A stretch of DNA of 32,444 nucleotides from Spirochaetota bacterium (lineage in GTDB: Bacteria; Spirochaetota; B62-G9). The stretch lies in contig QNBN01000004.1 of assembly GCA_003645695.1 (NCBI GenBank), forward strand, positions 1 to 32,444, written 5' to 3'. The notes beneath the pieces were generated by a model. That model worked only from the letters and a program-made list of their open reading frames with translations. It did no database searches and was not told the DNA's origin. The translations under genes were made by a program, and so were the position numbers. This document shows positions 94 through 30,656 of this stretch, one piece after another (the stretch's first letter is position 1; every line of letters starts with the position of its first letter).

Positions 94-1905
94 CTATTTT
101 TTAACTTCATTCGTAATATATTCATCAATAGCCTGAGCTGCTCTATGCCCATCAGCTACACCATGTATAATGTCGGGCCCATGCACGATATCGCCGCCTG
201 CAAATAGCCAGGGTATAGGAGTTCTTCCGTATTCATCAGTAAGAATTCTCCCTCTTACTATTTCAAGTCTATCCAAAATATCCTTTCCTAAATAATCATA
301 GTTAGGTGCCTGCCCGATAGCTTCTACAACCATTGTTCCTTCATAGTCCTCTATATCTAATTCATCAACTTTTGGATTGAACCTGCCGCTTTCATCAAAT
401 ATCGATAAACATTTAACTGTTCTTAATCCTTTTAACTTTCCATTTTCATCCAGAAGAACCTCTTTTGGAGATCTTCCAGGATGTATCACGATACCCTCTT
501 CCTGTCCTTCTTCTATTTCGTCTTCATCAGCAAGCATCTCATCGCGTTTTTCAAGACAAGTTAGGTGAACACCAACTTCACCAAACTCAGTTTTCTGTAA
601 CCTTGCAATTGATCTTGCAATATCAAAGGCTACATTTCCACCTCCAATAATTACAACCTTCCTCTGTAGTTCAATTTTTTCGCCTCTTGAGATTTTAGCA
701 AGTAAATCAAGTGCTCTGAAACAACCAGGTTTATCGACATTCTTTATTCCTGTGGACCTTGATTCTGAAAATCCAGTACCAATAAATACTGCATCAGATT
801 TATCTTTAATTTCTTTAATTGTTATATCTTCTCCAACCTTAGTGTTTGTTTTTATCTCCACACCCATAGATTGTATAATCTCTATATCTTTATCTAGAGC
901 TTTATCGGGTAAACGATAATTAGGTATTCCATACCGCATTACCCCACCAGCAAGAGGTTTAGCTTCATATATGGTAATTTTATAACCCATAACTGATAAA
1001 TAATAAGCACAGCTCAGCCCTGAAGGACCGCTCCCGATTATGCTAACCTTCTTCTGCTTTTTACCCCCTTCAAAAATATGTGCTATTTCCTTTATTTGAT
1101 CCACGGACAACTGATCAACTGCATATCTCTTTAACCACCTGATCGCAACAGGCTCACCTCTATGCCCAATGGAACAAACAGTTTCACATTTATGTGTACA
1201 AACTCTACCACAAACTCCCGGTAACGGATTTTCTGTATACATATTCTCCACAGAACCATAGGGATTATCTTCCCATATCTCCTGTATATACTCAGGGATT
1301 TTCATATGAGCTGGACAGACCTCCGTACACAAACCACAAGCCACACATCTTGATGCCTCTTTTATAGCTTCCTCTTTTGTGTATCCCTTAACAATTTCTA
1401 CAAAAGAAGTAATGCGTTCTTCAACTGTAAGTTGCTGCATTTCAACCCTTTCAAGATCAAGAAAGTTAACCTTTTCATCAGCAACATAACCCAGCGGGAA
1501 ATCTACCTTATGTATTCCTTCTTTTGTAGGAAGAATATAAAAACTATCCAGGCCTTCATCTATATGAGTATATTCCCTTGTCATCGTTAAAGATCCTGTA
1601 GTACATATATCCACACAAAGACCACACCAACAGCATCTACCATAATCTATTGAAGGTCTCTTATTTGTTTTCCCAGGCTCTTCTTTAAGGTATGGTATTT
1701 CAATCATTTTAATTGCTTCATTATCACAAATTTCAGCACATGTACCACATCCTATACATTTTTCCCAATCATTAAGATGAAACCCTCTATAACGTTCCGC
1801 TGTTGGCCTTTCTTCATAGGGCACTCTAATCGTTACAGGTTTTTCACCTATATATTTTAGTGATTTAAAAGGCTTTAAAAAACTCCCCTTATTCTTATTT
1901 GACAT
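94..1905 (-). CDS. Fusion of NuoI/MbxN-like 2x[4Fe-4S] ferredoxin subunit (about aa 1-145) with GltD/NfnL-like FAD-NAD(P) oxidoreductase (about aa 146-603)
   Basis: CIGCGTCAEIC and CCWCGLCVDIC cluster motifs with NuoI-like RYRGFHLND and RPSIDYGRC context; then CVACGLCTEVCPAHMKIP, PGVCGRVCTHKCETVC, SIIGSGPSGLSCAYYL (FAD) and VVIIGGGNVAFDIAR (NAD(P)). Last gene of the Mbx-like operon, in the N-subunit position. Confidence 0.9.
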   Translation of the reverse strand: MSNKNKGSFLKPFKSLKYIGEKPVTIRVPYEERPTAERYRGFHLNDWEKCIGCGTCAEICDNEAIKMIEIPYLKEEPGKTNKRPSIDYGRCCWCGLCVDICTTGSLTMTREYTHIDEGLDSFYILPTKEGIHKVDFPLGYVADEKVNFLDLERVEMQQLTVEERITSFVEIVKGYTKEEAIKEASRCVACGLCTEVCPAHMKIPEYIQEIWEDNPYGSVENMYTENPLPGVCGRVCTHKCETVCSIGHRGEPVAIRWLKRYAVDQLSVDQIKEIAHIFEGGKKQKKVSIIGSGPSGLSCAYYLSVMGYKITIYEAKPLAGGVMRYGIPNYRLPDKALDKDIEIIQSMGVEIKTNTKVGEDITIKEIKDKSDAVFIGTGFSESRSTGIKNVDKPGCFRALDLLAKISRGEKIELQRKVVIIGGGNVAFDIARSIARLQKTEFGEVGVHLTCLEKRDEMLADEDEIEEGQEEGIVIHPGRSPKEVLLDENGKLKGLRTVKCLSIFDESGRFNPKVDELDIEDYEGTMVVEAIGQAPNYDYLGKDILDRLEIVRGRILTDEYGRTPIPWLFAGGDIVHGPDIIHGVADGHRAAQAIDEYITNEVKK

Positions 1906-1988
1906 ATCTCATTGAATCCTTTCGATAATTTGTAAGTATAAAAAATATCAAAAAAAAATAACATTGCATATATTATAATTTTCATCTA

Positions 1989-3107
1989 CTATCTATCAAT
2001 TTCTGGTGGACATGCATCAAGACTAAATATAATCTGTGATGCATCTTCTATCCTTTCATTAACCAATAAATTTTCAAGTATGTGAACCCCATGAGTTACT
2101 GATGCCCCCCTCACATGTACACGATATGGTCTTACTCCACCATCACTTACAAAATAATAAGCGAACTCTCCTTTAGATGATTCAGTTCTTACATATGCAT
2201 CACCTTTAGGTATTCTCCATTTAAGTGGATTTGGTGTTTTATTCCAAACTGGACCTTCTGGTATATTTTCAATAATTTGTCTAATAATTTTTATACTTTC
2301 TTCAATTTCAGCTCTACGTACTAATAATCTTGCATATGCATCACCTTCCACTTGAGTCGGTATATCAAAATCCAGATATGGATAAGCCTCATAAGGATCA
2401 TCCTTCCTTATATCTGCCTTAACTCCAGACGCTCTCAAGTTCGGACCTGTTGCACCCCATTTTATAGCATTTTCCTTGCTTAAAATACCAATTCCTTTTG
2501 CTCTTTTTACTGTTAATTTACTATTAATAAACAAATCATCATATTCTGGAAGTCTTGATTCAAGATAATTCACAACTTCTAACACCCGACGTTTAAAACC
2601 TTTTGGTAAATCTCTTCTAACACCACCAGGTATTATAAATATATGGTATACCCTTCCTCCTGTTAATTCCTCAAAAAGCTCTAATATCCTATCACGATCA
2701 GAAATAGTCCAGTTTGGCAAGGTATATAAACCAATACTTCCAGCATGGCTACCAAACGCAAGTAGGTGTGATGCTATTCTGGACAACTCAAGTATCATGC
2801 TTCTAATATACTTTGCCCTAATTGGAACCTCAATTCCTGCAATTTCCTCTATTGCCCTTGAATAATTTTCTTCATTTGGATCAGGATCAGGTACGCATAT
2901 TCTGCATACTATTGCAACATTCTGCAAATATAACCTTTCCTCCATTAACTTTTCAAACCCTCTGTGTAAAAAACCACCTTCTGCTTTTGCTTCTATAATC
3001 TTGTCACCTCTTAACTTCAAAATTACAGAATAATTACCAGATATACCAGGATGATTAGGACCTATAAAAAGGTTATAATCTCGCACCTCATCATTAGTTC
3101 TTGTCAT
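1989..3107 (-). CDS. mbxL: Mbx/Mbs-type large subunit (NuoD / NiFe-hydrogenase large-subunit homolog)
   Basis: NuoD-like protein; N-terminal VCRIC retained, C-terminus ends SLDACPPEIDR (no CxxC); operon position L. Confidence 0.88.
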   Translation of the reverse strand: MTRTNDEVRDYNLFIGPNHPGISGNYSVILKLRGDKIIEAKAEGGFLHRGFEKLMEERLYLQNVAIVCRICVPDPDPNEENYSRAIEEIAGIEVPIRAKYIRSMILELSRIASHLLAFGSHAGSIGLYTLPNWTISDRDRILELFEELTGGRVYHIFIIPGGVRRDLPKGFKRRVLEVVNYLESRLPEYDDLFINSKLTVKRAKGIGILSKENAIKWGATGPNLRASGVKADIRKDDPYEAYPYLDFDIPTQVEGDAYARLLVRRAEIEESIKIIRQIIENIPEGPVWNKTPNPLKWRIPKGDAYVRTESSKGEFAYYFVSDGGVRPYRVHVRGASVTHGVHILENLLVNERIEDASQIIFSLDACPPEIDR

Positions 3108-3656: not shown

Positions 3657-4241
3657 TTATTTTATTTTAAATCTTTTTATATCAGACTTAATATCAAGAT
3701 TAGTATTAACTTCACCAAAGACATACTCCTGATTCTTTTTATAAAATTCATAATTAAGATAATATTTCTTCCAGTTCTGCGCACTACCATTATCAATATC
3801 TTCAATCAACCTGTTAAAACCCCTTATTATCGCTTCTGGTCTCGGCATACAGCCAGCAATATATAGGTCAACAGGTAAATAATTATCTAATTGCTTAATT
3901 GTGGCATAAGAGTTCCAATACATACCACCATTTATTGTACATGAACCAAACCCAATAACCCACTTCGGTGATTGCATTTGTTCATAAACTAAAATTAAAC
4001 GTTTTAATGTTTTTACAGACAAATAACCTGTAACAAGCAAAATATCAGCTTGCCTTGGGGTTACATATGGCACAATTCCAAAACGTTCCATATCAAATCT
4101 TGATGTCATAGTAGGAGGTAATTCGACAGCCCCACAACCTGTACAATAATGAAGCATCCATAATGATCGTTTTCTTAATTTATCAGCTATTTTTTCCCAA
4201 ACTGTTCTATGGGTTAGTTTTCCTTTCTTTAAATCTCCCAT
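3657..4241 (-). CDS. mbxJ: NuoB/MbxJ-like [4Fe-4S] subunit
   Basis: CTGCGAVE, VIGFGSCTINGG and VDLYIAGCMPRPEAI motifs typical of NuoB/hydrogenase small subunit. Confidence 0.9.
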   Translation of the reverse strand: MGDLKKGKLTHRTVWEKIADKLRKRSLWMLHYCTGCGAVELPPTMTSRFDMERFGIVPYVTPRQADILLVTGYLSVKTLKRLILVYEQMQSPKWVIGFGSCTINGGMYWNSYATIKQLDNYLPVDLYIAGCMPRPEAIIRGFNRLIEDIDNGSAQNWKKYYLNYEFYKKNQEYVFGEVNTNLDIKSDIKRFKIK

Positions 4242-4387: not shown

Positions 4388-5278
4388 TTAAACTAACACA
4401 ATTATTACACCAACAATCGCAAGTAAAACCGGTATTTTCCACAAAAACCGCATAGCGTCATCTATTCTAAATCTCCCAAAAACTCCATTTACACTAATCA
4501 ATATTGTAAAAATAACAAACATTTTTATTAGTAAGAATATCCAGTTTCCACCACCACCCAGGAATAAATCAATATAAATAGTTAGCTCAATAAAAATGGA
4601 AATAGCATGCTGAATAAACATTATGCCTAAATATTTTCCACCCATTTCAACCATTGGTCCTGTAGCAATTTCATGAGGCGCTATAAAAACCTCAAATGGT
4701 TTTTCTCCCATCATTCCAAAAAGCGCTATAAATGCAGCAATAGCTAAAAATGGATGTGTAAATAAGTGCCAACTATGAAATCCATTTACCTGCTGATTTA
4801 CCATTATTTGATAGATTGAAGTTGTATTATTTAATATTGCAATACCTATAAACGATAGAACAAATGGAACATCATAACCTGCAAGTAACATTAAAGCCCT
4901 TGATATCCCAATACTACCGTTTGGGTTTGCTGTCTCTCCAACACCTAACGCCATTCCTAACTGCGGAATTAGAATCAAATACATCAGTACAAGCATATCA
5001 CCATATTTTGAGAAAAAGTGAAATCCTGGAACTGGGACAAAATATAAAGACAGCAAGGTTCCACCTAAAAGCATTATAGCAGATACATCATGCATATAGC
5101 CATGAGATATATTAGTTCTCTTGGCCATAAGCTTTAAAATATCATAAAGCGGCTGAAACCATGGAGGACCATATCTTCTTTGAAGTCTAGCAGTATATTT
5201 TCTACTATAAGCCATAAAAAATATACCAATAAAAAAAGCAATAAATGGCAATAATATAATCCAGAGTACTATGCTCAT
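4388..5278 (-). CDS. mbxM: NuoH/MbxM-like membrane anchor subunit
   Basis: Polytopic; RRYGPPWFQPLYDILKLMAKR and MMGEKPFEVFIAPHEIATGPMVEMGGKYLGIM motifs. Confidence 0.9.
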   Translation of the reverse strand: MSIVLWIILLPFIAFFIGIFFMAYSRKYTARLQRRYGPPWFQPLYDILKLMAKRTNISHGYMHDVSAIMLLGGTLLSLYFVPVPGFHFFSKYGDMLVLMYLILIPQLGMALGVGETANPNGSIGISRALMLLAGYDVPFVLSFIGIAILNNTTSIYQIMVNQQVNGFHSWHLFTHPFLAIAAFIALFGMMGEKPFEVFIAPHEIATGPMVEMGGKYLGIMFIQHAISIFIELTIYIDLFLGGGGNWIFLLIKMFVIFTILISVNGVFGRFRIDDAMRFLWKIPVLLAIVGVIIVLV

Positions 5279-5421: not shown

Positions 5422-7269
5422 CTATAACAAAATTAGTATAGTTATTAATAATCCAATTAATATGTACATACCATAAGTATTAATATTTCCTGTATAGAGT
5501 CTTCTAAAATAATCTGCTATTTCAGTAGTAAACCTTATAATACTATTCTCAGTTCTTTGAACTGGTTCATAATCATACGCTGGCTTTATTATATGTTCAA
5601 ATCCTGCATAAAAATGATAGTTATAATTATATGGTACTGAACTGTCCAGAAAATTACCTGCTGCATAATTATCATATTGACTTACATGCTTTCTTCTATT
5701 CCCAAGAAGGTAAACGATAAATCCAATAAACATCGATGCCATAAAAACAATCGAAACTATCCCCATATTAAGATTACCAACAGTCTGCATAACTCCATGT
5801 AATGTATAATTAACAGGTGCTATACCTAAACTATCCTGAACCTTTGCTATAAAAGAAACTGCAAGTCCAGGATATACACCAAGACCAAATACCGCTAACA
5901 TCAATATCCAAATTGGTATTTGCATATCAAAAGGTACCTCCCTCACATCATTATAACGTTCAGGGAGCTGTCCTAAGAAGATGTTATGAATAAACTTATA
6001 TACAGATAGTATTGTCCCAAGAGTTCCGACAAAAGCTGCCGTCGCCAGGAATGGATATCGAGAAGAAATCAATGCCTTATATATAAACCATTTAGATACA
6101 AAACCATTCATTGGAGGGATTCCAGCAAGTCCTATTATTCCAAGAAGGACTCCTAGAAAGGCTACTGGTTGTTTTTTAATCAATCCACCCAGTTTATTTA
6201 AGTTTGTTGTGCCTGTTCTATACTCCACTGCAGCAAGGCTAAACAATATTAATGTAATATACGTCATGTGGTTTAAAACATGAAACATTCCACCTGCTAT
6301 CCCAAGGCTAGTTCCTGAGGCAATTCCAACCAACATATATCCACCTTGCCCAATACCATGCCAGGTCATCAGCTCTTTTCCATCATTTTGAAGAAGCGCT
6401 GTAAATGTTGGTATTACCATTGTAAATGCGGCAAACAAGGCAAATATATACCTAAAGTTAATTGCACCTATAATGTGCATTTTATCTAACAAAGGCATTC
6501 CTAAAATGTTAAACATATAAAAAATAATCCCATAAACACCCATTCTAGTTGATATACCTGCAAGATAGCTCGTTAACGTCGTAAATGTATTAGAATATGC
6601 CTTTGGAAGCCATTTATGTACAGGATATACCGCAGCTTCGATTGAAAATGAAGTAATTAAAAGAATAGATATTAGCACCAACATTCCTTTATTTATTGAA
6701 GCCAAACTTTTATGAATAATATCATATTCAAAACTTCCAGCATAACTATACATTAACATAATTCCAAACATTAGCATCATTGCTGACACAACAGCATACA
6801 CAAGGTAACGATACGAGGATTCATATGCCTTTCCACCAGACTGAGCCATCAAGAAAAAAGTACTCCAGCTCATCATCTCCCACATTATAAAAAACATTAA
6901 AAAATCACCTGATAAAACTACACCTAACATGCCAAACGTCTTTAGAAAAAGCCAGAAGTAATACATTCTGCTATTTTCTTTATTAACCATATAGCGAAGT
7001 GAGAACAAAACAGTTAAGACAGTGATACCACTAATCATAAGGCTGAAAAACAAGCCCAGGTAAGTTACGCTAAACCCTGGCCTTATTCCCCAGATTTCAA
7101 ATGGTATTTTATATGTATATCCAACTTGGCCAATTAACTTAATATTAAAATAAAAAATTGCTATAAATATTATAAATGCAACTGATTTCTTAACACTTTC
7201 TACCCTATAGAATAAAAGGCTTAATAATGCACCTACAAGAGGTAAAAGCAAAAAAACGTAAAAACCCAT
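5422..7269 (-). CDS. Second antiporter-like subunit (MrpD/NuoL/M-type, MbxH')
   Basis: Polytopic; IMWEMMSWSTFFLMAQ (TM5 Glu) and PVHKWLPKAYSNTFTTLTSYLAG motifs; second MrpD-like copy in the operon. Confidence 0.87.
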   Translation of the reverse strand: MGFYVFLLLPLVGALLSLLFYRVESVKKSVAFIIFIAIFYFNIKLIGQVGYTYKIPFEIWGIRPGFSVTYLGLFFSLMISGITVLTVLFSLRYMVNKENSRMYYFWLFLKTFGMLGVVLSGDFLMFFIMWEMMSWSTFFLMAQSGGKAYESSYRYLVYAVVSAMMLMFGIMLMYSYAGSFEYDIIHKSLASINKGMLVLISILLITSFSIEAAVYPVHKWLPKAYSNTFTTLTSYLAGISTRMGVYGIIFYMFNILGMPLLDKMHIIGAINFRYIFALFAAFTMVIPTFTALLQNDGKELMTWHGIGQGGYMLVGIASGTSLGIAGGMFHVLNHMTYITLILFSLAAVEYRTGTTNLNKLGGLIKKQPVAFLGVLLGIIGLAGIPPMNGFVSKWFIYKALISSRYPFLATAAFVGTLGTILSVYKFIHNIFLGQLPERYNDVREVPFDMQIPIWILMLAVFGLGVYPGLAVSFIAKVQDSLGIAPVNYTLHGVMQTVGNLNMGIVSIVFMASMFIGFIVYLLGNRRKHVSQYDNYAAGNFLDSSVPYNYNYHFYAGFEHIIKPAYDYEPVQRTENSIIRFTTEIADYFRRLYTGNINTYGMYILIGLLITILILL

Positions 7270-7278
7270 GGTTCCCCC

Positions 7279-8745
7279 TTATCCCAACACTGCATGAATA
7301 AATGCAATCTTATTTATTAAATCAGCACCAGCTTTATTTGTGTAGTTAAGAATACCGTTCGTATATATGAAACTTATAACTATGATAATTGCAAGCAGAC
7401 CCAGAGGAAATAAAACTGCAAACGGCACTTTAGCATATCCTTCTTTTCGTTTCTTACCTGTATACATTATTTTTGCAATTTTAAAGAAATAAGATGCCTC
7501 AAAAATTGTGCCTAACAAGACAAGTGCAGTTAAAACTATATATAAAACTGAATGTTTACTTATGGCAGCAAGTATAATATTAAACTTGCTAAAAAAACCT
7601 ATAAAAGGAGGTATACCAATTAGTGAAAGAGCACCAATTATAAACACAATTCCTAGAAAGGGCATCGATTTAGCTATTCCCTTGTAATCTGAGACATTTT
7701 TTGAACCAGTTTTATGTATGACATATCCAGCGCTTAGAAATAGTAATGACTTAGAAACAGCATGATTTATTATCTGGAAAATACCACCACTTATTCCCTG
7801 CGGGGTATTAATACTAAATGCAAATAAAATCAAGCCTATCTGGCCAATACTCGAATATGCAAGGACTCTCTTTATATTTTCCTGTTTAAAAGCAGATAAT
7901 TCACCCATTAAAAGGGTAATAACGCCCACAATCGCAAAAAAAGTTAAGAAATAAGTAGCACTAAATATTAAGAAGATTATCTTCATAATTATTATTAAAG
8001 CCACTTCAATAACAAAACCTGAAAGTACTGCACTTATTGAAGAAGGAGCAGATGAATGTGCATCTGGAAGCCAGCTGTTTAAAGGAAATATTGCTGCTTC
8101 TATTCCAAAACCTGTTATCATCAAAATGATTGCAATAGTTATTAGATTCTTATTAGCATTCTGGTATTTCAATGCAATATCTGCCATATTCAAGGTACCA
8201 ATTGAAAAATAAATAAGAGCAATACCAAAAAGAATCAGTACAGAACCAATAGACCCCTGTATAAGATATTTCATAGAAGCTTCAAGCCCGTCTCTATTTC
8301 TGTCATACGCAACAAGTGCATACGATGAAATACATAGTATCTCAAAAAAAACGAATAAATTAAATATATCTGCAGTTAAAACCATTCCGATTGCTCCTGT
8401 AAGAAGAAGCAGGAACATTGAATAAAAAAGAGGGGAAGAATCATCATTGATATATTTAAAAGAGTATATCATTGACAGAAAACCAATAAATGTAATAACA
8501 ATGGAAAGTACAGCAGCAAGCGGACCCACATAAAGGTTAATACCTACAGGAGGCTTATACCCGGCAATTATTACTGAAATCGGTGTATTAATAGTATGCA
8601 TAAAAATGTAAATAGCTGCAATCAGGTTAAATAATCCTACAAAAAAAGCTATATACTTTGCTAAACTTTTAGCAGCTTTAGAAATTATTGGAATAAAGAA
8701 AGCCGCTGCTATAGGAACAATTATTAGTAAGATTGGGTTTACCAC
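7279..8745 (-). CDS. mbxH: MrpD-type antiporter-like subunit (MbxH)
   Basis: FVFFEILCISSYALVAYDR and LNSWLPDAHSSAPSSISAVLSG motifs. Confidence 0.88.
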   Translation of the reverse strand: MVNPILLIIVPIAAAFFIPIISKAAKSLAKYIAFFVGLFNLIAAIYIFMHTINTPISVIIAGYKPPVGINLYVGPLAAVLSIVITFIGFLSMIYSFKYINDDSSPLFYSMFLLLLTGAIGMVLTADIFNLFVFFEILCISSYALVAYDRNRDGLEASMKYLIQGSIGSVLILFGIALIYFSIGTLNMADIALKYQNANKNLITIAIILMITGFGIEAAIFPLNSWLPDAHSSAPSSISAVLSGFVIEVALIIIMKIIFLIFSATYFLTFFAIVGVITLLMGELSAFKQENIKRVLAYSSIGQIGLILFAFSINTPQGISGGIFQIINHAVSKSLLFLSAGYVIHKTGSKNVSDYKGIAKSMPFLGIVFIIGALSLIGIPPFIGFFSKFNIILAAISKHSVLYIVLTALVLLGTIFEASYFFKIAKIMYTGKKRKEGYAKVPFAVLFPLGLLAIIIVISFIYTNGILNYTNKAGADLINKIAFIHAVLG

Positions 8746-9104
8746 TTAAGCCCCCTTATTTTAGAAATATCAAGTGTACCATAATGTTTATACAACCTTA
8801 TTGCAATGGCAAGAGATAGTGCTGTTACCCCAAACCCAATAACTATGGCAGTAAGAACAAGTGCCTGCGGTAATGGATCAACCATATTCTCAAAACCCAA
8901 TGAACCCTTAGAGAAAATTGGTGCTGTTTTATTTTTAATATATCCAGAAAAAACTATAAAAATATTAACTCCGGAATCGGCAAGGTTAAGACCAATAATA
9001 ATTTTTATGAGATTTTTTTCGGCAATAACCAGATATATACCTATTACTACCAAACCTATTGAAGCCGTGAAAATAAGCGTTTCTATATTAATAATATTAT
9101 TCAT
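8739..9104 (-). CDS. mbxG: MrpC/NuoK-like subunit (MbxG)
   Basis: NuoK-like small membrane protein, DPLPQALVLTAIVIGFGVTALSLA motif. Start moved to ATG at 9104 because GGAGGA precedes it; ORF track begins at 9122. Confidence 0.85.
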   Translation of the reverse strand: MNNIINIETLIFTASIGLVVIGIYLVIAEKNLIKIIIGLNLADSGVNIFIVFSGYIKNKTAPIFSKGSLGFENMVDPLPQALVLTAIVIGFGVTALSLAIAIRLYKHYGTLDISKIRGLKW

Positions 9105-9810
9105 TTTCACTCCTCCTTCCATATTTACTCACAAAAAGGTTACCTACCGCTCCTGATAGCTCAGAGGATACCTTTATACCAATTGCTGCATAAATTAAAG
9201 GGATAATCCCCGCACTAAATACAGTGTTAAAAACACCTTTATTCATAAAATTAACTAAAAAAGATTTTTCTGGGGTAAAAAGCCCTACAATACCAAGTAC
9301 TATAAATGAAAGGCCCGCAAATCCTTCAATAATAGTTAAGAAATAATCTCTAAATTTGAATACATCAGAAGTCATAAGAACTATAAAAAATCCTGTTGCA
9401 ATGATTACCCCTCCAGGGAAACCTCCACCAGGGGTTAAATGCCCATGAGCAATTATATATATTCCAAATAAAAACATAAAAGGAAATAACAAATGGCTAC
9501 CTGTTTTCAATATAAAACTTTCATCTTCAGTTTTATGCTTAAAACTCCTACCTCCTTTCATAAGGAGCGCTATTCCTAAAGCTGATAGAAACAATACAGT
9601 AACCTCTCCCAATGTATCAAATCCTCGATATAGAACAACAATAGAGGTAACTGCATTTGCAGCCCCTGTTTGTCTAACAGAATTCTGCAAAATATCAATG
9701 CCTACACTTTTTTTCTCAGAGCTATCAGATGGAATTACTATTGCTGCTACAATAGTAAACATATAAAATGCAAAACCAAATATTAGAATTAATCCAATTA
9801 ACTTTCTCAT
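9097..9810 (-). CDS. mbxF: MbhE/MbhF-type fusion (MrpA C-terminal-like plus MrpB-like; MbxF)
   Basis: N-terminal NAVTSIVVLYRGFDTLGEVTVLFLSALG (E-like), then HGHLTPGGGFPGGVIIATGFFIVLMTS (MrpB hallmark). Confidence 0.85.
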   Translation of the reverse strand: MRKLIGLILIFGFAFYMFTIVAAIVIPSDSSEKKSVGIDILQNSVRQTGAANAVTSIVVLYRGFDTLGEVTVLFLSALGIALLMKGGRSFKHKTEDESFILKTGSHLLFPFMFLFGIYIIAHGHLTPGGGFPGGVIIATGFFIVLMTSDVFKFRDYFLTIIEGFAGLSFIVLGIVGLFTPEKSFLVNFMNKGVFNTVFSAGIIPLIYAAIGIKVSSELSGAVGNLFVSKYGRRSENE

Positions 9811-9813
9811 GCC

Positions 9814-10068
9814 TTATTCCTTCTTCTCCGAATATTTACCTTTCGTTTTGCTTATGGCAATGATAAAAATAACAGTGGTAAGAGCAGATCCAATTGTCGC
9901 TTCCGTTATTGCAACATCAGGAGCAGCGAGAAAAACAAATATAATAGAAATACCTAAACTTATCACCGAACTTACTATCACTGCATTTAAGACATTTTTT
10001 ATAAAAATAATTCCAACGCCCGCAGCCAACATCATAATCACCAAAAAGAATAACATATATATCATCAT
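9814..10068 (-). CDS. mbxD: MbhD-like subunit (MrpA fragment, DUF4040-type)
   Basis: FVFLAAPDVAITEATIGSALTTVIFIIAI motif. Confidence 0.82.
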   Translation of the reverse strand: MMIYMLFFLVIMMLAAGVGIIFIKNVLNAVIVSSVISLGISIIFVFLAAPDVAITEATIGSALTTVIFIIAISKTKGKYSEKKE

Positions 10069-10394
10069 TTTACCTCTTTATCTGTATTATCCCTGCATTT
10101 ATCAACTACAGATTTTTTATATAATGAAATCCCAGCTTTATGGCTCGCCCTTGCTATCGTACTACTACTAATTGGATTTGAAAGTGCAATGAACACGATT
10201 AATATTAAACTTTTTAATAAGAAAGATGTATTAATAAATCCAACTCCCAAGATTAAAGACATCGCCCCTAATGTAGTAGCTTTTGTACCAGCTTGGAGCC
10301 TATTATAAACATCTGGCATTCGAATTATTCCAAGTGCACCAAGCATAAGAAAAGTCGCACCAATAATAATTAAGACATCACCAATAATAGCCAA
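10065..10394 (-). CDS. mbxC: MrpG-like subunit (MbxC)
   Basis: LGALGIIRMPDVYNRLQAGTKATTLG motif of MnhG/MrpG. Confidence 0.85.
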   Translation of the reverse strand: MAIIGDVLIIIGATFLMLGALGIIRMPDVYNRLQAGTKATTLGAMSLILGVGFINTSFLLKSLILIVFIALSNPISSSTIARASHKAGISLYKKSVVDKCRDNTDKEVK

Positions 10395-10646
10395 TTAAAT
10401 GCCTCCTTCCATATATCGTGCAACAGTAACAATTCCAACAAACCCTAACACAGCATAAACTATAGCTACATCCATATATATTAACCTATCAAAAAACACA
10501 GCCATAAAAACCAACAGTGCAGTAGTAATAGTGGCAAGCGTATCTGAAGCAAGTAATCTATCCGAGGACGTCGGACCGATAAGCAACCTTATAAACGATA
10601 AAAACACAGCAATCCCAATTAATATCAATGAGATATAATTAATCAC
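10395..10646 (-). CDS. mbxB: MrpF-like subunit (MbxB)
   Basis: RLLIGPTSSDRLLASDTLATITTALLV and YAVLGFVGIVTVARYMEGG motifs. Confidence 0.85.
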   Translation of the reverse strand: MINYISLILIGIAVFLSFIRLLIGPTSSDRLLASDTLATITTALLVFMAVFFDRLIYMDVAIVYAVLGFVGIVTVARYMEGGI

Positions 10647-11140
10647 TCAATTATCCCCTTTAAAATTTTTTCAAAACGCATACTTATCTTTTTTGTAGCT
10701 TCTTCAACATCCATACTTTTCACATCAATCCAATGAATAAAAAGTTCATCATCTTTAACATCTAAAGTTAGCGTTCCTGGAGTTAATGTAATTGAATTAG
10801 CTAAAATAAGCTTTGCGAGCCTACTTTTTAACTTTGTCTTAACAGAAACAATCCCAGGATTTATGGGCAACGCAGGATTAATAACTCTCAGGGCAACATC
10901 TATATTGGCTTTTATTAATTCTTTAATAAATACAAAAATATATATTACAAGTTTGAATAAAGATTTTGGTGTTATCTTAACATCAGCATATATATCACTA
11001 AATCTATAAAAAAGAAGAGATCCAATAAAAGATACCAAAAGGCCTAATATAAGATCATCACCTTGAATTGCAGATGTCAAAAAAATCCAAATAATCATTA
11101 AAAAAATAAAAGATAATATGAATCTCTTAATCTTTCTCAT
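10643..11140 (-). CDS. mbxA: MrpE-like subunit (MbxA)
   Basis: MrpE features: NSITLTPGTLTLDVKDDELFIHWID; first gene of operon. Confidence 0.85.
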   Translation of the reverse strand: MRKIKRFILSFIFLMIIWIFLTSAIQGDDLILGLLVSFIGSLLFYRFSDIYADVKITPKSLFKLVIYIFVFIKELIKANIDVALRVINPALPINPGIVSVKTKLKSRLAKLILANSITLTPGTLTLDVKDDELFIHWIDVKSMDVEEATKKISMRFEKILKGIIE

Positions 11141-27377: not shown

Positions 27378-30300
27378 TTATCTATTTAAAAATCTTGATA
27401 CAATTTTCGCATCAATTGATAGTGGAAATCTTTCTCCGAGCTCAACTTTACTAAAATCAAGAGATGTCATCTTACCCTTTGGCGTTAGGGGGACCAATGC
27501 AATTCTGTTATCTTCAACAGCTGCTCTTTTGTCCATTAGTGCAAGCCCCACCTGTATCCCTTCACCATTTACCGCATTGCTTGTTACGAAACCCACAACC
27601 TTTTGATTCTTCTTGCTAACAACCAGGTCACCGGATTTTACCATCTTTACCCCTTTTTCATACATCTGAAATCTTGCAATACTGAGTGTATGATTTTTAA
27701 TTTTTTCGATCATTGCCTCCCTTCCTACAAAAAAGGGTTTATGCAGTTTCACATAGGGGGCAAATCCGGCCTCAATAGGGGAAATATTGTATGGACCCGC
27801 CAGTTCATGGCCGTACAGAGGTAAACCAGCTTCTGTTCTTAAAGAATCCCTGGCTCCAAGACCGATTGGCTTTAATCCATAATTCCTACCCACATCTAAA
27901 ATAATATTCCATAGCTTTGGTGCATGTTCGGGATGAATGAGTATCTCATACCCTATACTCTCCCCTGTATATCCAGTTCGCGCTACTATTGCATCGATTC
28001 CAGAAAGTTTTATTCTTGTAAATTCAGTTTTTTTGACATGAGAAAGCTTAACCTTCTCCCTCTCATCTTCAATAATCTGTAGCAGTATATCGAGAGATTT
28101 AGGTCCCTGGATGGCAATGTTAATTTTAGCTTTATGTCCTGCTTTTGGATCTTTTAAATTAAGAATCTCAGCTTGTCCAAGAATTTCCTTATAAGGATAC
28201 CTGTTATCAATGATATATTTTCCTGAATTAACACCGGTCATCCATCTAAAATCCTTTGTTTCATTTGCAGCATTTACCACAACTATATAATCTTCAACGG
28301 CCAACCTATAAACCATGATATCATCTATTACATTGCCATCAGGATCAAGCAGATAGCTATACTGCGATTCTCCGATTTTAAGCCAATCTACATAATTAGA
28401 AGTTACAGTATCCAGGAAGGAGGTGGCATGTGGTCCGGATACAGAAAAAACTCCCATATGAGAGATGTCAAATAATCCAGCGTTTTGCCTTACAGTAATG
28501 TGCTCATCAATAATCCCCTCATAACGCACAGGCATTTTCCAGCCTGCAAAATCAACCATAACTGCTCCGAGTTTCTTATGTTCCTCGTACAAAACACTTT
28601 TTTTTGTATCTTCCTCTTTATCTTCATATTTAAAGGTTTCCTTATTTTCATAACCAATATTAGCACTTATTCTATCATGCCCGATAAAATACGGTTTTTT
28701 CACATCAAAAAACTCTGGATACGATTCAAATATTTCCTTAACTTCGTTTAAGCCTTTAATAGGATTTTCTTTCTCCTTAATTATTCCCGATTTTTCAAGT
28801 GTCGAAATTATAAGATTTTTCGTTCCCTTACACACCTCTGCAAACTCCCTTACAATAACCGGGCCTTCTATTTTCATATAAATATCATTCTTGTTAAACT
28901 CTATGTAGCCATCCGAGAGGCCCCTCAACCACTTAACCAGATTAACCTTATCATCCGGGTGAACAATTAAAACGAACATATTATTGCCTGTTTCTACATC
29001 TTTTATCTTCATCAGGCAGGTATGAGCTATCAAACTGTCTTTTTCATCAAAGAAAAGCGTTTCAATAACATCCCCATACTTAAGGTCTGATATCTTTCGT
29101 GTTGTTGATTCTTCAATAAGTTGTATTGACCTTTTACCCTCGACCAAAACAATTGAACGATCACCATAATCCTTTGTAGCATTAATTTCAAACAAGTCAT
29201 GGGGATAACATTCATCCGATTTCTGCCTTCTCTCATTCTCAGACTTAAGCCCTTCCACTACCTCTTTTACAATAGTCTGTGCATCATTCAGGATAGGAAG
29301 TGATATTTTTCCTCTTGGAAGCCGCCCTGTAAGCCCAGTATATTCAAAAGGCCTTATATTTTTAATAACCAGAGAAATGGCATCTGCAAGCTTTTGAAGG
29401 CCCTGCTCAGTAATTCCCCTTTGAGTTATCCATGGTGTCCCCATCCTTACACCCGTGGCTTCAGGAGTAATAAGGTCACCAGGTATAGTATTCTTATTGG
29501 CCACAATTCCGCATATATCAAGCATTCTAACGGCTATTTCTCCCCTTAAAACAAATCCAGTTTTCGTATCTACTGATTTAAGATCAAGGACAAACAGATG
29601 AGTGTCGGTTCCACCATATGCCAGTTTTATCCCATTTTTTTCGATCATCGAAGATAGGAGCTTAGCATTCTTAACTATTTGCCGTTGTGTATTTTTAAAC
29701 TCTTCACTTTCAGCTATTTTAAAGGCAACTGCCATAGCTGCGAACTTATTAACATGCGGTCCTCCCTGCTCCCCCGGGAAAACAGCCTGGTCAATAAGCT
29801 CTGCATAATCTGAATTTGTAGTAAGAATTACAGCTCCCCTCGGGCCAAACATGGTTTTATGAGTGGTAAAGGTTACAACATCAGCATAATCAATGGGATT
29901 TGGATAGGCTCCGGCAACTACCAGGCCGGCCGGATGAGAGATATCTGCAAATAGTATGGCATTTACACTATCAGCAATTTCTCTAAACTTCTTCCAATCG
30001 GGAGCCCATGGATATGATGTGTAACCGGCAATTATCATTTTTGGCCTATGTTGCTGTGCAAGGTCATATATGGCATCATAGTTCAACCGTTCAGTTTTTG
30101 TATCCACCTCGTATGATACTATTCTATAAGTCTTTCCGGATCTGTTAAACTCGCTCCCATGGGTGAGGTGTCCACCGTGCATTAAGGACATACCCATAAC
30201 AGTTTCACCACTATTAACAAAAGCATCATATACAGCAGTATTTGCTGCTGCTCCTGATAAAGGTTGTACGTTAGCGTAGATATATTCAGCAGGATGTTTT

Positions 30301-30656
30301 TGAGTTTGGAATAGTTTTGCAACCCTTTTCTGTGCTAAAGCTTCTACAAAATTAACATATTCACAACCCTTATAAAACCTTCTATCTGAATACCTTCTAT
30401 AGTATGCTATTATTCTGAAGTATTCTTTTAAAGTTTCATCATCCTCAAGCATAAGGTCTTTTGGTGGATAACCTTCTGCATATATATTTGTAAATACACT
30501 CCCAAGCGCTTTTCTAACAGGAAAAGGTGCGATACTTTCAGAAGGAATAAGAATAATTCTATTCTTCTGCCGTATTTCTTCAAAATCAATTAAATCCGAC
30601 ACAGCTCTATCAATTTCCTCCAAATCCTTACCGAAAAACTTATCTGCATATATCAT
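27378..30656 (-). CDS. Trifunctional-looking fusion: serine hydroxymethyltransferase (about 29247-30656), degenerate GcvT/YgfZ-like segment (about 28596-29246), aminomethyltransferase GcvT (about 27378-28595)
   Basis: GlyA: [20 protein letters not shown] (PLP Lys267). Middle: [22 protein letters not shown]...[27 protein letters not shown]...DIYMKIEGP. GcvT: [35 protein letters not shown]...[20 protein letters not shown]. Confidence 0.92.
   Translation of the reverse strand: [1092 protein letters not shown]

Follow-up and report, generated by a model that had tools for sequence, protein, structure and literature searches.

A predicted NAD(H)-linked electron-entry subunit in a bacterial MBS-type complex: NuoI-like and GltD-like domains joined in one protein

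MBS is regarded as an evolutionary intermediate linking hydrogenases with complex I and, to our knowledge, has been described solely as a ferredoxin enzyme. Among bacterial systems, mbxA of Thermotoga maritima is induced by S0 (PMC9431562), and a "putative Mrp-Mbx", whose function and direction are listed as unknown, is expressed together with the reductive TCA cycle in Riftia symbionts (PMC11636981). No structure of a bacterial Mbx was found in PDB. For flavin modules of the GltD type two points of reference are available. In NfnB the residues Y-R-R grip the phosphate of NADP, and DsrL proteins with YRR use NADP(H), while those lacking it prefer NAD(H) or depend on it (PMC7596348). In StnC, having a non-bifurcating GltD domain, K170 is a ligand of the flavin-proximal cluster (PMC10482914, 8oh5). 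Here we describe a gene combining the N subunit of an mbx operon with such a flavin module. It was found in a stretch of 32,444 nucleotides from a Spirochaetota bacterium (GCA_003645695.1, contig QNBN01000004.1, positions 1 to 32,444), hereafter called the window.

Operon and type of the complex

The fusion is the last of 13 mbx genes, which run from MrpE-type A (11140) through L (1989) and are arranged as follows:

94..1905, minus strand: mbxN-gltD fusion, 603 aa (profile, structure-match and alignment evidence)
1906..1988, minus strand: spacer between mbxL and the fusion, 83 bp, AT-rich (18% GC), with a ribosome-binding-like site AAAGGA
1989..3107, minus strand: mbxL (NuoD-like), with MBS-type R-I-C-V and C-P-P-E-I-D-R, without [NiFe] or quinone residues
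3094..3648, minus strand: mbxK (NuoC-like)
3657..4241, minus strand: mbxJ (NuoB-like), with MBS-type short C-T-G-C loop and proximal [4Fe-4S]
4388..5278, minus strand: mbxM (NuoH-like membrane anchor)
5422..7269, minus strand: mbxH' (antiporter-like pump subunit), with E, R and H at the MbsH' E128/K248/H336 sites
7279..8745, minus strand: mbxH (MrpD-like pump subunit), with E138 retained and the K250 and H330 sites altered
8739..9122, minus strand: mbxG (MrpC/NuoK-like)
9097..9810, minus strand: mbxE (MbhE + MnhB)
9814..10068, minus strand: mbxD (MbhD)
10065..10394, minus strand: mbxC (MrpG)
10395..10646, minus strand: mbxB (MrpF)
10643..11140, minus strand: mbxA (MrpE)

The 13-subunit MBS set (A, B, C, D, E, G, H, H', M, J, K, L and N) is complete in the window. 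A separate MbxN, the absence of which had been noted from the beginning, was indeed not found in this operon, all remaining ORFs being assigned to the other twelve subunits. Directly upstream of mbxA there is a gene for an ArsR-type regulator with two cysteines (C13 and C92; 11278-11592, minus strand), which we assume may be a sulfur-responsive switch comparable to archaeal SurR. Another part of the window contains a 1092-aa ORF (27378-30656, minus strand) matching serine hydroxymethyltransferase at residues 86-427 and aminomethyltransferase GcvT at 689-965; this apparent SHMT-GcvT fusion sits close to the genes for glycine cleavage proteins P and H.

The Mbx/MBS scaffold assumed in the original prediction is supported by MbxJ and MbxL, which have MBS chains as their best matches and possess MBS diagnostic residues. 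E-values for MbxJ were 4e-68 with MBS, 7e-36 with NDH and 4e-29 with MBH; those for MbxL were 4e-116 with MBS, 1e-76 with complex I and 8e-49 with MBH. The roles of the MBS and Nqo4 diagnostic residues were taken from PMC7684303. The motifs R-I-C-V and C-P-P-E-I-D-R of MbxL correspond to the C85/C385 sites, i.e. two of the four [NiFe]-ligating cysteines are retained, as in MBS, and the Nqo4 quinone residues H38 and Y87 are replaced by S and V. The loop of MbxJ is 3 aa shorter than that of MBH (the aligned stretch is 127 aa versus 130 in MbhJ, with no gaps relative to MbsJ) and contains C-T-G-C in place of the tandem CC of complex I. Two other types of complex were rejected on these grounds: a [NiFe] membrane-bound hydrogenase (MBH), since only two of the four [NiFe] cysteine sites are occupied in MbxL, and a complex I or quinone-type reductase, because of C-T-G-C in MbxJ and of S and V at the H38/Y87 sites in MbxL. 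Judged by its diagnostic residues, the core of the operon is MBS-type (sulfane/polysulfide) and neither hydrogenase nor quinone-type.

In some relatives MbxL retains H at the H38 site, and in a few both cysteines are gone. The equivalent of C25 in MbxJ is absent at eight loci (L035-L037, L098, L101, L108, L111 and L117), leaving the proximal cluster with only three cysteines, in independent agreement with the three-Cys coordination that has been published, and we infer the same coordination for MbxJ. As to the pump subunits, E138 of H and E128 of H' are conserved in the window. MbxH has E and Q at the sites of MbsH K250 and H330, a feature that is common to most proteins of the Spirochaetales type but depends on the alignment; its ion path or pumping may differ from that of MBS.

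Architecture and predicted specificity of the fusion

The ORF of the fusion is read from the ATG at 1905 to the stop codon at 94-96 without internal stops. Residues ~1-150 represent a NuoI/MbsN-like dicluster ferredoxin domain with two [4Fe-4S] clusters, and residues ~152-600 a complete GltD/NfnL-like module with two further [4Fe-4S] clusters, FAD and an NAD(P) site. The N subunit was expected to be joined to a full FAD/nicotinamide module in one polypeptide, and three lines of evidence agree with this. Pfam domains found were Fer4 dicluster (49-104), Fer4_20 (GltD/DPYD FeS domain, 165-266) and Pyr_redox_2 (286-581). The NCBIfam model NF010590 matched residues 5-600 by its positions 7-609 of 611 with 918.6 bits, which is just below the cut-off of 946 and characterizes the fusion as related over its whole length but slightly divergent. 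The closest solved chains were MbsN (6u8y_N) for residues 4-112 and NfnI-L (5jca_L) for residues 152-600. Profile search and structure prediction had been proposed as a check of the 603-aa protein; besides the nearly end-to-end match to NF010590, the AlphaFold2 model built with 35 homologues (mean pLDDT 88.8, pTM 0.83) had NfnI-L as its top Foldseek match (target TM 0.88). Across the fusion alignment K259 does not vary, and neither do 16 cysteines, of which each cluster motif has four.

A sequencing error that had joined two adjacent genes, initially named as a potential refutation, was rejected, since one ORF spans residues ~1-600 in nearly all of at least 80 loci from other genomes; the exceptions among the loci listed are L107, which ends at a contig edge, and L113, which is split. 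The fusion itself, however, is not the novelty it was supposed to be: it belongs to an already catalogued uncharacterised family, NF010590/PRK13984 ("putative oxidoreductase"), represented in many phyla. No biochemistry of any family member was found in searches of the open literature, and key reviews may contain an earlier remark on the fusion. The NAD(H) prediction, the rubrerythrin-like partner, the distribution among sulfur oxidisers, with its prevalence in sulfur-oxidising Gammaproteobacteria, and the mosaic gene described below appear to be new.

At the position of YRR the window fusion has C-L-E, and nearly all relatives in the alignment have S/A/C/T-L-E. Based on this loss of YRR, NAD(H) rather than NADP(H) is predicted as the partner in nearly all the family, and the window fusion is predicted to be specific for NAD(H). 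Thus, of the exchange with NAD(P)(H) originally proposed, a nicotinamide partner remains the natural reading, while NADP(H) does not. YRR is retained only in the divergent fusions L035, L036 and L037, which are probably NADP(H) users inside the same family. K259, positioned by the offset of an ungapped alignment, aligns with K170 of StnC, while NfnB has Glu at this site, and no NfnS partner was found in the window operon. Both features argue for linear, non-bifurcating transfer and disfavour bifurcation, so that electrons should pass through the flavin module linearly. Hence all hallmarks of Nfn, i.e. the NfnS partner, the NADP motif YRR and Glu at the flavin-proximal cluster, are absent at this locus.

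Distribution, neighbours and ancestry

The survey of NuoI-GltD fusions next to mbxL suggested with the original prediction was performed as a scan of species genomes. It gave at least 80 named loci from ~10 phyla among the matches listed, belonging to Spirochaetota, Thermotogota, Halanaerobiales, Gammaproteobacteria, Bacteroidota, Chlorobiota, Cloacimonadota, WOR-3, Delongbacteria and one alphaproteobacterium, and the usual place of the ORF among the loci listed is the end of mbxA-L, after mbxL. Thermosipho, Fervidobacterium, Halanaerobium and many sulfur oxidisers carry the fusion; by analogy with the Thermosipho and Fervidobacterium loci, Mbx of T. maritima very probably has it as well. In 149 genomes of the window phylum MBS-type MbxL (380 bits or more) was registered in 10 and full-length fusion (over 600 bits) in the same 10, which represent six families. 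Ten genomes were picked because their fusion had no full mbx cluster adjacent to it in the retrieved DNA, and all ten gave a strong match to MbxL. Since the fusion and MBS-type MbxL occur in the same genomes, one can assume that the former is a component of the Mbx complex and not a chance neighbour. The NF010590 cut-off was passed by one of 14 control genomes.

The source genome has at least two additional MBS-like L genes, located on contigs C50 and C147. On the former (L029, G000:C50, 8553-13942) there is a second mbx K-L-N, in which MbxL lacks both MBS cysteines, followed by genes for a membrane protein with DUF4405 and a ferritin-like protein with DUF2202. The latter (L133, G000:C147) contains a third MBS-like set, J-K-L, which is broken off at the contig end and adjoins an ORF resembling, by eye, a REP-type transposase.

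A rubrerythrin-like gene (PF02915) lies directly downstream of the fusion in 43 of the 80 loci listed (for instance, L039 4054-4548 and L055 11792-12295), and in six Spirochaetales such a domain is fused to its C-terminus (as in L042, 9971-12256), four more having divergent tails. Three tandem ferritin-like genes are found in L032-L034. In the nearest relative, G028 (L031/L039), the rubrerythrin-like gene is separated from the fusion by 25 bp. The window contig ends 93 bp past the stop codon of the fusion, and a similar downstream gene would lie out of view; no ferritin tail hidden by a frameshift or stop was seen within these 93 bp. As a guess, the rubrerythrin-like partner may protect the cluster chain against peroxide or oxygen.

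The gene of the window is mosaic. Its neighbours L, K, J, M and H' are nearest to the Spirochaetales type (L030, L042-L046; identity of L 69-78%), and residues 1-165 of the fusion cluster with the same type (support 98/97), whereas residues 196-600 cluster with G028 (L031; 86% identity, support 100/99), MbxL of which is just 50% identical to that of the window. Ancestry switches within codons ~165-195, at the NuoI/GltD domain boundary, and the ferritin-like tail is lost. This may reflect either recombination or a MAG chimera. The completeness of the source MAG is 88% and its contamination 5.7%. In a search for traces of chimeric assembly no long word common to the window gene and the compared donors was found, the longest being 29 bp and lying elsewhere in the gene. 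Unless the contig is chimeric, the position of the switch implies that the flavin module is swappable as a unit.

Putative electron path and comparison with known systems

Altogether, the fusion is probably the electron-entry subunit of a bacterial MBS-type complex, with the flavin module linking this complex to the NAD(H) pool. From the sequences we infer the route of its electrons, its specificity for NADH, its sulfur substrate and its coupling to ions in the following way. Electrons would be exchanged between NADH, FAD and the two [4Fe-4S] clusters of the GltD-like part, then between these, the two [4Fe-4S] clusters of the NuoI-like part and the proximal [4Fe-4S] of MbxJ, where S-S bonds of sulfane or polysulfide would be cleaved (or formed), and this chemistry would be coupled via MbxL/M to H/H' and the Mrp ion-translocating arm. 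Because NADH and polysulfide have similar potentials, the enzyme probably works almost reversibly. In fermenters it would run as a polysulfide reductase and in sulfur oxidisers, possibly, in ion-gradient-driven NAD+ reduction.

The same closeness of potentials counts against the NADH-linked reading, as electron transfer from NADH (about -320 mV) to polysulfide releases little energy that could drive pumping. The altered K250 and H330 sites of MbxH, the incompleteness of the source MAG and the different ancestry of the two halves of the gene weigh against it as well. Ferredoxin may still dock at the NuoI-like domain, and since this domain retains both its clusters, the real partner could be ferredoxin, with NADH in a secondary role. 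The NAD module would then be auxiliary, i.e. regulatory or serving as a side exit that balances ferredoxin and NADH. MBS does take electrons from ferredoxin (PMC7684303), and Mbx of T. maritima is modelled as ferredoxin-dependent (PMC9431562). Nevertheless, we consider ferredoxin unlikely as the physiological donor, since practically every member of the family retains all cluster cysteines together with the two nucleotide folds, and the strict co-occurrence of the fusion with MBS-type MbxL is not needed for an accessory role. The idea originally put forward, an Rnf/Nfn-like ferredoxin:NAD(P) oxidoreductase built on the Mbx scaffold and possibly electron-bifurcating, agrees with NfnI-L being the closest solved relative of the GltD module and with potential ferredoxin binding by the NuoI-like domain. 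It is nonetheless clearly unlikely, given the operon without NfnS, the StnC-type Lys instead of the NfnB Glu, the lost NADP motif and the MBS-type active site conserved in MbxJ/L, while electrons moving only from ferredoxin to NAD would skip the coupling site and bypass its chamber. Moreover, the source genome has its own rnfC (575 bits, above the cut-off), so a ferredoxin:NAD function is not needed from Mbx. No [FeFe] hydrogenase was found in this genome.

The frequency of the rubrerythrin-like neighbour and its six fused variants may also suggest a soluble NAD(H) oxidoreductase mainly serving this protein in peroxide or O2 reduction and loosely tied to Mbx, and in some Beggiatoaceae the fusion and the rubrerythrin-like gene are indeed located away from mbx. 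Yet mbxL is still present in the genomes with the unlinked pair, and Halanaerobium, Bacteroidota and others have the fusion and mbx with no rubrerythrin gene detected, which makes this explanation highly improbable.

If the fusion is indeed the NAD(H)-linked entry subunit, the complex could be a reversible ion-translocating NADH:polysulfide oxidoreductase, which in sulfur-oxidising Gammaproteobacteria, including vent tubeworm symbionts, runs backwards, so that a gradient of sodium or protons drives the reduction of NAD+ by sulfide or polysulfide to supply carbon fixation. This extension is possible, though still doubtful. In the alignment, the NAD-type fusion is present in tubeworm symbionts related to those of Riftia (L097, L110 and L118). 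A widespread NAD(H)-wired bacterial branch would, if true, mean a second, independent joining of the MBS/complex I core to nicotinamide, by means of a GltD-type module different from the NuoEFG of complex I. It also gives a concrete prediction for bacterial Mbx, including the Riftia-type Mrp-Mbx: NAD(H)-dependent, linear and sulfur-linked.

Among known systems, MBS of Pyrococcus furiosus (6u8y; PMC7684303) has the same set of 13 subunits; its chains are the best solved matches of the window MbxJ, L, M, H and H', and both complexes share the cysteines of L and the short loop of J. The window complex is a variant, as MbsN is small, separate and ferredoxin-fed, while N of the window is extended by a full NAD(H)-flavin module. 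The Thermotoga Mbx operon is likewise bacterial, sulfur-induced and composed of 13 subunits, but it is described as ferredoxin-dependent (PMC9431562). NfnL/NfnB (5jca, 4ylf) resembles the flavin module in fold, FAD site and two [4Fe-4S] clusters, but its YRR for NADP, Glu cluster ligand and bifurcation with NfnS are absent here. StnC of the Stn transhydrogenase (8oh5; PMC10482914) also combines a GltD domain with a complex I-type FeS domain, has the Lys ligand and transfers electrons linearly from nicotinamide to clusters, but its fusion partner is NuoG and not NuoI, its nucleotide is NADPH, and it is not built on an ion-translocating membrane arm. Finally, DsrL (PMC7596348) unites a GltD-like module, in which YRR sets the choice between NAD and NADP, with a ferredoxin domain in sulfur metabolism, but it is soluble, has DsrAB as its partner and bears the ferredoxin domain at its C-terminus.
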